Source: Gemmatimonadota bacterium (GTDB lineage: Bacteria > Gemmatimonadota > Gemmatimonadetes > Longimicrobiales > Gaopeijiaceae). From it: a stretch of 64,000 bases of DNA. A model generated the notes under the pieces. The model was not told the DNA's origin, searched no databases, and saw nothing but the letters and a program-made list of their open reading frames with translations. The DNA is taken from the NCBI GenBank assembly GCA_022826565.1, contig JAJDUP010000026.1, positions 124,001-188,000 of the forward strand, given 5' to 3'. The translations under genes and the position numbers were made by a program. Each line of letters opens with the position of its first letter. Within the stretch, counting starts at the first letter, position 1. Positions 47,356 through 49,676 of the stretch are shown here, one piece after another.

Positions 47356-47958
47356 ATGTACCGAACCGGAATTGAGCCGCCGGAACGCGTCTGGTGGAAG
47401 AAGGTGGAGCGGCACGAGAAGATGTGGGTGTGGATCGCCTTCGCCTGGTGCATGGTCCTGTTCGCGATGATGCCCCTGTGGCACCTGAGGGGCGGCCAGA
47501 ACCCGTCCGGGATCCGGCACCGGGTCGAGCCCGCCGACTTCCAGGCCAGGGTGGCCGAGTTCGTGCAGGAATACCAGGTGGGAACCGACAACGGTCTTCC
47601 CGTGGTCGAGCCGCCGCCCGGGAGCGACGTCTACCTGCAGGCGTCGCAGTATGCATGGATCCCCGTCGTCCGATTGCGCCAGGGGGCCGAATACACGCTC
47701 CACCTGTCGTCCGTGGACGTCAACCACGGCTTCAGCCTGTATCCCCTGAACATCAACTTCCAGGTCGTTCCGGGCTACGACTACGGGCTTCGCATCGTCC
47801 CGAACGAGCCCGGCGAGTTCCACGTCATGTGCAACGAGTTCTGCGGGATCGGCCACCACCTCATGGTTGGGAAGATCATCGTGGAGCCGGCGGACGCGGC
47901 GGCGGAAGCGGGGGACGCGCCCGCGGGCGCGGCATCGAACGTGGGAGGTGACCGATGA
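47356..47958 (+). CDS. Heme-copper reductase subunit II with CuA centre
   Basis: 200 residues from ATG at 47356. A short N-terminal region, one transmembrane helix (about 22-42), then a cupredoxin domain. CuA ligands are complete: His124 ('VDVNHGFSLYP'), Cys159, Cys163, His167 and Met170 in 'CNEFCGIGHHLM'. With a single membrane helix it resembles the ba3-type (B family) subunit II rather than the two-helix aa3 type. It accepts electrons from cytochrome c or a blue copper protein and passes them to subunit I, whose gene overlaps its stop (ATGA). Confidence 0.92.
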   Translation: MYRTGIEPPERVWWKKVERHEKMWVWIAFAWCMVLFAMMPLWHLRGGQNPSGIRHRVEPADFQARVAEFVQEYQVGTDNGLPVVEPPPGSDVYLQASQYAWIPVVRLRQGAEYTLHLSSVDVNHGFSLYPLNINFQVVPGYDYGLRIVPNEPGEFHVMCNEFCGIGHHLMVGKIIVEPADAAAEAGDAPAGAASNVGGDR

Positions 47959-49676
47959 GCGCCTTCCGAACGTGTCCGACCACCGGACTCCAGGTGCACC
48001 GCACGGCCGACCAGCTCATCAAGGCCAACGCGGTCGTGGCCACCGTGGCGCTCCTCGTGGGGGGGATCGCGGCCCTGCTCGTGCTGCTGACGCGCTGGGA
48101 GGCGGTCCTCCTCCTCGAGGCCGACATGTTCTACCGGATGCTGACCATCCACGGCATGAACATGCTCATCTTCTTCATCATCTTCTTCGAGATGGCGGTG
48201 CTCTACTTCGCGTCCGCCGTGCTCCTCAACTGCCGGATCCCCGCGCCGAAGACCGGCTGGGTTGCCTTCGCGCTCATGGTCGTCGGGACCCTGATGGTCG
48301 AGTGGACGATGTGGACCGGCCGAGCCGATGTCCTCTTTACCTCGTACGTGCCGCTGCGGGCGCATCCGCTCTTCTACCTGGGCGTGATCCTCTTCGCGGT
48401 CGGGGCGCTGACCGTGGTCGGGCACTTCTTCGCCATCATCACGGTGGCCAGGAAGGAGAAGGCGTACGAGGGATCGCTGCCGCTGGTCACCTACGGGGCG
48501 CTGACGGCAGCGGCGATCGCCGCCGTCACACTGCTGCACGGGGCGATCATCTACATCCCCACCTTCCTCTGGTCGCTCGACCTGATGCACGTCGATGCGC
48601 AGATGTACCGCCTGATCTGGTGGGGCCTGGGGCACTCGTCGCAGCAGATCAACGTGGCCGCGATGGTGGCGATCTGGTATCTGCTCGGCGCGCTCACGGT
48701 CGGGGCGGTTGTCCTGAACGAAAAAGTCAGCCGTACGGCGTTCGTCCTCTATGTCCTCTTCATTTCGATGGCGTCGGCGCACCACCTGCTCGTGGATCCC
48801 GGCATGGGTCCGGCGTGGAAGGTTTGGAACACCAGCTATTTCATGTACATGGCGGTGCTCGCGTCGATGATCCACGGCTTCACGGTTCCGGCCGGGACCG
48901 AGCTGGGAATGCGGTTGCGGGGGGCGACGCAAGGGCTCTTCGGGTGGCTGAAGCGGGCGCCCTGGGAGGATCCCGGGTTCAGCTCGCTGGCGTTTTCGAT
49001 CGTCGTGTTCGGCTTCGTCGGCGGAATCACCGGCGTGACCTTCGGCACCGAACAGATCAACATCATCGCGCACAACACGCTGCGCATTCCGGGGCACTTC
49101 CACGCCACCGTGGTGTCGGGCACCGCGATGGCCTTCATGGGGATCACCTACTACGTGATTCCGCTCATCTTCCGGCGCGAGATCGCGTTCTACCGGCTCG
49201 CGAAGATCCAGCCGTACGTCTTCGCCATCGGCATGCTGATCTTCTCCATGGCGATGACGTTCGCGGGGACCTTCGGCGTGCCGCGCCGCCACTGGGACAT
49301 CGGCTTCAACCAGGCGCTCTTCCAGCCCGGGTTCTCGCCGGCGGTCAACCTGATCATCGGGGTGATGGCGGTAGGCGGGCTGATCGCGATCGTCGGCGGC
49401 GCGATCTACATCGTGGTCACGGTGGTGTCCGTGTTCTTCGGCAAGAAGATGGCAGCGGACGACTCCGGGCTGGGTGCGACCGGACGCGGGCTGCCGCCGG
49501 GCATCACCAACCCTCCGCGACCGCTCAAGCCGGAGGACAGGGAGGCGCTCGGTCCGTCGGGCCGCCTGGGTCCGGTCCCGGGCACGATGGTGCTGGTGCT
49601 GATCTTCCTGGCCGCGTTCATCATGTACTACTTCGTGAACTGGATGCTGCTGTCGTTCCTGTGGGAGGTAGGATGA
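47955..49676 (+). CDS. Divergent heme-copper oxidoreductase subunit I, possible NO reductase
   Basis: 573 residues, at least 12 helices. Heme ligands: His66 ('TIHGMNMLIFF'), His381 and His383 in 'RIPGHFHATV'. CuB ligands: His227 in 'WWGLGHSSQQIN' and the pair His276-His277 in 'SAHHLLVDPG'. In oxygen-reducing enzymes the histidine equivalent to 227 is followed four residues later by a tyrosine that is cross-linked to it (H-P-x-x-Y); here that position is Gln231. Loss of this tyrosine is a known mark of NO-reducing members of the superfamily. The rest of the protein is B-family-like. Start overlaps subunit II (ATGA), and it overlaps the SCO gene. Oxidase activity cannot be excluded. Confidence 0.85.
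   Translation: MSAFRTCPTTGLQVHRTADQLIKANAVVATVALLVGGIAALLVLLTRWEAVLLLEADMFYRMLTIHGMNMLIFFIIFFEMAVLYFASAVLLNCRIPAPKTGWVAFALMVVGTLMVEWTMWTGRADVLFTSYVPLRAHPLFYLGVILFAVGALTVVGHFFAIITVARKEKAYEGSLPLVTYGALTAAAIAAVTLLHGAIIYIPTFLWSLDLMHVDAQMYRLIWWGLGHSSQQINVAAMVAIWYLLGALTVGAVVLNEKVSRTAFVLYVLFISMASAHHLLVDPGMGPAWKVWNTSYFMYMAVLASMIHGFTVPAGTELGMRLRGATQGLFGWLKRAPWEDPGFSSLAFSIVVFGFVGGITGVTFGTEQINIIAHNTLRIPGHFHATVVSGTAMAFMGITYYVIPLIFRREIAFYRLAKIQPYVFAIGMLIFSMAMTFAGTFGVPRRHWDIGFNQALFQPGFSPAVNLIIGVMAVGGLIAIVGGAIYIVVTVVSVFFGKKMAADDSGLGATGRGLPPGITNPPRPLKPEDREALGPSGRLGPVPGTMVLVLIFLAAFIMYYFVNWMLLSFLWEVG

Follow-up and report, generated by a model that had tools for sequence, protein, structure and literature searches.

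The eNOR family of heme-copper enzymes is reportedly the subject of work by Hemp and Gennis in 2008, and the enzyme from R. marinus (Rhodothermales) is said to have been purified by Murali et al. in 2024. Biochemical characterisation of eNOR, including the reduction of NO, is reported in a passage of PMC11388526. For the active-site residue, table A4 of PMC8756737 gives Q in eNOR, Y in the oxidases, E in cNOR and qNOR, N in sNOR and CuANOR, and D in gNOR. The same table assigns one proton channel to eNOR, and a passage of that paper states that eNOR is distinguished by its Gln and mentions mislabelling as cytochrome c oxidase. In Ardenticatena the eNOR lies in an operon with NirK (PMC4653789), and passages of two further papers place eNOR also in Zetaproteobacteria and Gallionellaceae (PMC8114936, PMC10734462).

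The window analysed here is a stretch of 64,000 nucleotides from a Gemmatimonadota genome, and it carries an eNOR-type gene cluster. The catalytic heme-copper subunit I (573 aa; 47955–49676, + strand; PF00115 over residues 22–454) was identified as eNOR by alignment to ba3 oxidases and by trees. A cupredoxin subunit II (47356–47958, +; PF00116) lies directly 5′ of it, as in eNOR, and the two reading frames overlap by 4 bases. Together they make up exactly the span 47356–49676 that a first-pass annotation had singled out as a candidate NO reductase. Subunit II has an apparent N-terminal membrane helix, as read from the sequence, and contains the motif C-x-E-x-C-x3-H-x2-M as CNEFCGIGHHLM, which bears out the complete CuA site claimed for it earlier; the motif is complete in 76 of the 77 subunit II homologues found near eNOR, the exception being at locus L109. 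On the 5′ side there is a small protein of 64 aa with a single hydrophobic stretch and no Pfam match (47147–47341, +). Small ORFs are found at the same place in the Defluviimonas, Thermomicrobium and Thermus clusters, matched by position only. This is preceded by an Rrf2-family regulator (46662–47117, +; PF02082), and subunit I is followed by a copper chaperone of the SCO1/SenC type with a long N-terminal part (49673–50698, +; PF02630 over residues 182–322). Head to head with the regulator gene is the gene for a fusion protein of 536 aa (44980–46590, −), in which Pfam matches and invariant His and Cys residues predict a cytochrome b with two hemes, a pair of 4Fe-4S sites and a FlpD-like domain, and behind it there is a conserved protein with no Pfam match (44462–45052, −). 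Behind the cluster are ORFs which we take to resemble an NfeD-type protein and a flotillin-like (SPFH) protein (41221–43642), and beside it ORFs presumably resembling an S9-type peptidase (50700–53090, −) and an aconitase (53217–56135, −).

All six of the heme and CuB histidines that had been claimed for subunit I are found by alignment to ba3 oxidases, as H66, H227, H276, H277, H381 and H383, with H227, H276 and H277 aligning with the CuB ligands (best E 2.8e-46). The cross-linked tyrosine of the B-family (ba3) oxidases, four residues after the first CuB histidine, is not there: in the sequence GLGHSSQQIN this residue is Gln231, in the alignment column of Tyr237 from T. thermophilus ba3. The first-pass annotation had pointed to this glutamine, and both the ba3 alignment and the relatives confirm it. 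Neither the Asn that marks sNOR and CuANOR (bNOR) nor the Asp that marks gNOR is found at this position, the residue being Gln instead. The AlphaFold2 model of subunit I (pLDDT 85, pTM 0.88) has ba3 oxidases as its best fold match (TM 0.77, E 9.9e-19).

The glutamine is a constant feature of the close relatives. In an alignment of 147 rows, including the window protein, 114 have Gln at position 231 and 33 have Tyr. When the other 146 rows are ranked by how similar they are to the window protein in percent identity, every row at 44.9% or above has Gln (113/113; 8 of these duplicate another row over the compared stretch, and some organisms occur twice), and every row at 31.1% or below has Tyr (33/33, including the A-type oxidase of the window's own genome, the fragment L041 and the poorly aligned L157). 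No aligned row falls between these two values. A second set was sorted by the motif GH..QQ[IVL]N, with the own A-type oxidase, L041 and L157 removed and five protein-search matches added, giving 119 Gln rows and 30 Tyr rows. Sorting by motif fixes the counts at positions 227, 230, 231 and 233; sorting by identity repeats them. The motif is found in 360 of 360 homologues among the matches listed (three protein searches, best 120 each), and the clear conclusion is that Gln231 is not a chance substitution. It is worth adding that two Thermus thermophilus plasmid copies (L035 and L036) read GHFK, with Lys for the low-spin heme His that is present in the other 117 of the 119 rows.

Further differences appear along the proton path, for which we took the K-path residue positions of ba3 oxidase to be those given here. 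Val238 replaces ba3 Tyr244 (116 Val and 3 Ile in the 119 Gln rows, Tyr in 30 of 30 Tyr rows), Tyr266 replaces ba3 Phe272 (Tyr in 119/119 Gln rows, with 27 Phe and 3 Leu in the Tyr rows), and His307 replaces ba3 Thr312 (His in all 119 Gln rows and Thr in all 30 Tyr rows). ba3 Tyr248 corresponds to Tyr242, which is kept in every row of both sets, and ba3 Thr315 to position 310, which is Thr or Ser in 119/119 Gln rows. Judged from the aligned residues, two ba3 K-path positions are retained, and those closer to the active site are altered. Through the exchange at Tyr244 and Phe272, a phenol group of the path would come to sit on a different helix.

A tyrosine reaching CuB from another helix, which had been named as a point against the NO reductase reading, might have taken the place of the missing one. 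In cbb3 oxidases the tyrosine column is, we assume, six residues before the HH pair. This column holds Ile or Leu in 119/119 eNOR rows of the alignment, and a substitute tyrosine at the cbb3-type place is rejected. The invariant Tyr266 is on the same helix as His276 and ten residues ahead of it, so it more likely belongs to the proton path than adjoins CuB.

The tree check proposed with the first-pass annotation was run on rows selected from the collected sequences, and it places the window protein outside the sampled ba3-type oxidases and inside a Gln-bearing clade. In a tree with two A-type outgroups, the 46 Gln rows fall on one side with SH-aLRT support of 99, and the 26 Tyr rows have 74. 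The label changes between Gln and Tyr once; for this rooted tree the program issued a warning that long branches may have been drawn together. When the outgroup is left out, 40 Gln rows and 20 Tyr rows separate at 100/100, again with one change. Inside the Gln clade the window protein groups with Gemmatimonadota rows, and the clade also includes proteins named Ardenticatenales, Rhodothermales, Thermomicrobium and Fodinibius, the first two representing published eNOR lineages in place of the A. maritima and R. marinus sequences themselves. The residue pattern and the clade together support the candidate NO reductase, and identify it more exactly: subunit I is assigned to eNOR, an already known family, and the window copy would by that assignment reduce NO.

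Within the phylum, 38 of 150 genomes carry eNOR at 67–100% identity, two of them as partial sequences (G098 and G119), and the other long matches in the 150 genomes are at 34% identity or less. In the window's genus, eNOR is present in 9 of 11 sampled genomes. Loci were also found in Pseudomonadota, Myxococcota, Acidobacteriota, Verrucomicrobiota, Bacteroidota and Nitrospirota, among others; these multi-phylum loci are the best 80 of 294, come nearly all from metagenome bins, and were found with two patterns, one of which covers Gln230 and leaves out Gln231.

The window's genome (93% complete) has two heme-copper subunits I, an A-type oxidase and eNOR. A denitrification pathway is not supported there, as NirK (best E 1e-7), NirS (a weak match) and NosZ all stay under their curated cut-offs, the best NosZ match (E 5.6e-9) being the eNOR subunit II itself. 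Since no nitrite or N2O reductase reached the cut-off, NO from outside is the probable source, and the role in this genome is probably the removal or respiration of outside NO. Across the phylum, the association of eNOR with NosZ is weak (20 of 54 NosZ genomes; Fisher p 0.019) and there is no clear co-occurrence with NirK (8 of 18 NirK genomes; Fisher p 0.08), both p values being too small because the genomes are related. A passage of PMC10581226 puts the share of host-associated Gemmatimonadota that have norB but lack nosZ at 28%. According to a passage of a 2025 survey (PMC12569097), 13% of Gemmatimonadota with denitrification genes have nir and nosZ and no nor; since the survey's Nor reference set, as described there, included eNOR, this figure is context and not contradiction.

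The regulator had been called NsrR-like. It does belong to the Rrf2 family, with three putative cluster-binding cysteines, Cys100, Cys107 and Cys113 (and Cys120), but NsrR itself is rejected, as the protein scores 22.6 bits against the NsrR model (an NCBIfam equivalog) with a cut-off of 182; the IscR model gives 67.4 bits with a cut-off of 207.55. It appears from these matches to be a generic Rrf2 protein of the Fe-S type, so the NsrR argument was a weak leg of the earlier reading. The Cys triad is present with loose spacing in 22 of 22 Rrf2 homologues near eNOR, and with exact spacing in 6 of the 22. Thermus Rrf2 gave no BLASTP alignment with the window Rrf2. Between the divergent regulator and fusion genes there is a palindromic candidate operator, TTATCATATNNNCATGATAA (46630–46649, +; 3 mismatches here), which occurs once in the window at up to 3 mismatches and in none of 100 shuffles. 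Of the 22 loci used to derive it, 15 have it close to the start of Rrf2 at up to 4 mismatches; at up to 2 mismatches it is found in 5 of 20 other loci and absent from 15, counted irrespective of whether a regulator is present. Its position between the two genes means that it could serve both, which suggests joint control of the divergent units.

We count 84 eNOR loci, of which 39 are fully flanked, having 5 kb or more of DNA ahead and 8.5 kb or more after. Among the 39, subunit II is present in 39, SCO in 37, CtaB in 16 and an Rrf2 homologue in 12. Across all 84, CtaA is near 20 and CtaB near 32; the window contains neither. In Thermomicrobium roseum (L034, 9829–11631) a likely CtaA-CtaB fusion, annotated as heme o synthase, is directly behind eNOR.

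Three other readings of the enzyme have to be weighed. It could be a B-family (ba3-like) O2 reductase that continues to reduce O2 despite the loss of its cross-linked tyrosine, since the closest solved structures are ba3 oxidases, the sources name homologues cytochrome c oxidase, two K-path positions are retained, and the loss of Tyr alone is compatible with O2 reduction. However, the substitution does not stand alone: positions 238, 266 and 307 switch together with the Gln, no Gln row is below 44.9% identity and no Tyr row above 31.1%, and the Gln rows form a separate clade at 100/100. The genome moreover already has its own A-type oxidase, and eNOR is reported in a passage of PMC11388526 to reduce NO, all of which makes an O2 reductase quite unlikely. 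That the enzyme is instead another oxidase-derived NO reductase (sNOR, gNOR, bNOR or nNOR) is very improbable. A passage of PMC11388526 relates these likewise to the B-family oxidases, but the residues tabulated in PMC8756737 are N for sNOR and CuANOR and D for gNOR, not Q; sNOR, gNOR and bNOR are set apart from the window protein by this residue alone and not by a tree, as the trees are without named sNOR, gNOR, bNOR or nNOR rows.

There is also a small chance that the enzyme, though an eNOR, has a main substrate other than NO, or that it serves as a proton pump or a general safety valve for redox balance. Alternative substrates are left open in a passage of PMC8756737, and the window's genome is without NirK, NosZ or NirS over cut-off. 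Set against this are the Rrf2-type regulator that adjoins the eNOR genes, the DUF542 gene and the multicopper oxidase gene near eNOR in Thermus, and the passages of the literature covered, which report no substrate for the family besides NO. We therefore hold it very probable, from the residues and the clade, that the cluster encodes a two-subunit heme-copper enzyme of the eNOR group, predicted to reduce two NO to N2O and water, likely with electrons from CuA.

The part of this locus most worth following is the linked fusion gene. In 33 rows of the fusion protein His90, His104, His191 and His205 are invariant, as are Cys309, 312, 315 and 319, Cys345, 351 and 355 (with Cys348 conserved in at least 90%), and Cys393, 412, 437 and 442. 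Between them, these residues could provide the ligands of two b hemes, two 4Fe-4S clusters and a cluster of the FlpD type. About six long helices, possibly membrane-spanning, are seen in the model (pLDDT 89), and by analogy with cytochrome b the iron-sulfur part would face the cytoplasm.

Of the 39 fully flanked loci, 37 have the fusion gene no more than 10 kb from eNOR, and in 35 of these 37 the distance to subunit I is at most 5 kb (it is about 6 kb in L115 and about 8 kb in L060); no fusion gene was found in the remaining two, L111 and L035. The gene neighbours eNOR in many phyla. The gene that follows it has a homologue in 34 of the 39. Counting loci of any length, 62 of 84 have the fusion gene; the Thermomicrobium locus and both Thermus loci have no fusion gene near eNOR. 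By genome, it is present in 37 of 38 with eNOR and in 2 of 112 others (Fisher p 1.5e-31, kinship ignored), counted at about 50% identity or more, a threshold set by eye from the tables. Of the 150 genomes, 86 have some match, in many cases one limited to the cytochrome b part, but the idea that this is simply a common gene of the phylum is rejected, as 39 genomes have it at about 50% identity or more and 37 of these have eNOR. Among 72,556 plasmid records, the sole match covering at least 80% of the fusion protein is from Defluviimonas, beside its eNOR.

In two genomes where no eNOR was found (G109 and G142, loci L161 and L162), the fusion gene and its follower are beside a CtaA-like gene, the locus in G142 being at a contig end. 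This arrangement favours a role in building the enzyme over one as electron donor. The titles and passages returned by paper searches contained no description of a link between eNOR and the fusion protein, though Murali et al. 2024 may describe it. One protein, RME88945.1, is entered in an appendix table of PMC8756737 as having cytochrome b6, DMSOR-beta-like and FlpD domains, in a passage that makes no link to eNOR.

We propose tentatively, at rather less than an even chance, that eNOR in most lineages works with this dedicated membrane redox protein, which with its two b hemes, two 4Fe-4S clusters and FlpD-type cluster would link the cytoplasm and the outer side, would in Gemmatimonadota be under the same Rrf2 operator, and would supply electrons for NO reduction or for heme A and copper loading. 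If this is true, electrons have a second way into an NO reductase, one that faces the cytoplasm. The fusion gene offers a direct genetic handle on the electron or cofactor supply of eNOR.

For the eNOR itself, electrons would pass from a periplasmic donor to CuA in subunit II, then to the low-spin heme and the heme-CuB site. Protons would come from the cytoplasm through a rebuilt K-type path, in which Tyr242 and Thr310 are kept and Val238, His307 and Tyr266 are new. The missing tyrosine would leave a site fit for NO and not for O2 splitting. Copper and heme are likely delivered by SCO, and by CtaA and CtaB in other loci, and the fusion protein likely moves electrons across the membrane, feeding or building the enzyme. 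The Rrf2 protein is the likely repressor of both divergent units, acting at the palindrome that they share. The substrate NO is toxic and the product N2O is a greenhouse gas. As the sources label homologues cytochrome c oxidase, NO reducers and sources of N2O can be overlooked.

The fusion protein has parallels among known proteins for each of its parts: its cytochrome b part aligns with cytochrome b6 and its model matches b6f and bc1, and it has 4Fe-4S and FlpD domains by Pfam, like the Hdr/Mvh-type iron-sulfur proteins. Unlike either of these it joins three parts in one protein, and among the 60 matches listed no solved sequence spans the whole of it. The enzyme shares with cNOR and qNOR the predicted reaction and the lack of the active-site Tyr, but those have Glu at the site and, in place of a cupredoxin subunit, either carry a heme c subunit or use quinol, according to a passage of PMC8756737. 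With T. thermophilus ba3 it shares the fold, the metal ligands, the CuA subunit and the K-path residues Tyr248 and Thr315, and it differs in having Gln for Tyr237, Val for Tyr244, His for Thr312, Tyr for Phe272 and Asn for Trp239, and in its separate clade. The closest likeness is to the known eNOR, with which it has in common the Gln at the Tyr site, the six His, the CuA subunit II directly before subunit I, and the clade of the Ardenticatenales and Rhodothermales proteins; it differs from them in its setting, a Gemmatimonadota genome with NirK, NosZ and NirS all under cut-off, and in the genes of its cluster, which include those for SCO and Rrf2 and the divergent gene for the fusion protein.
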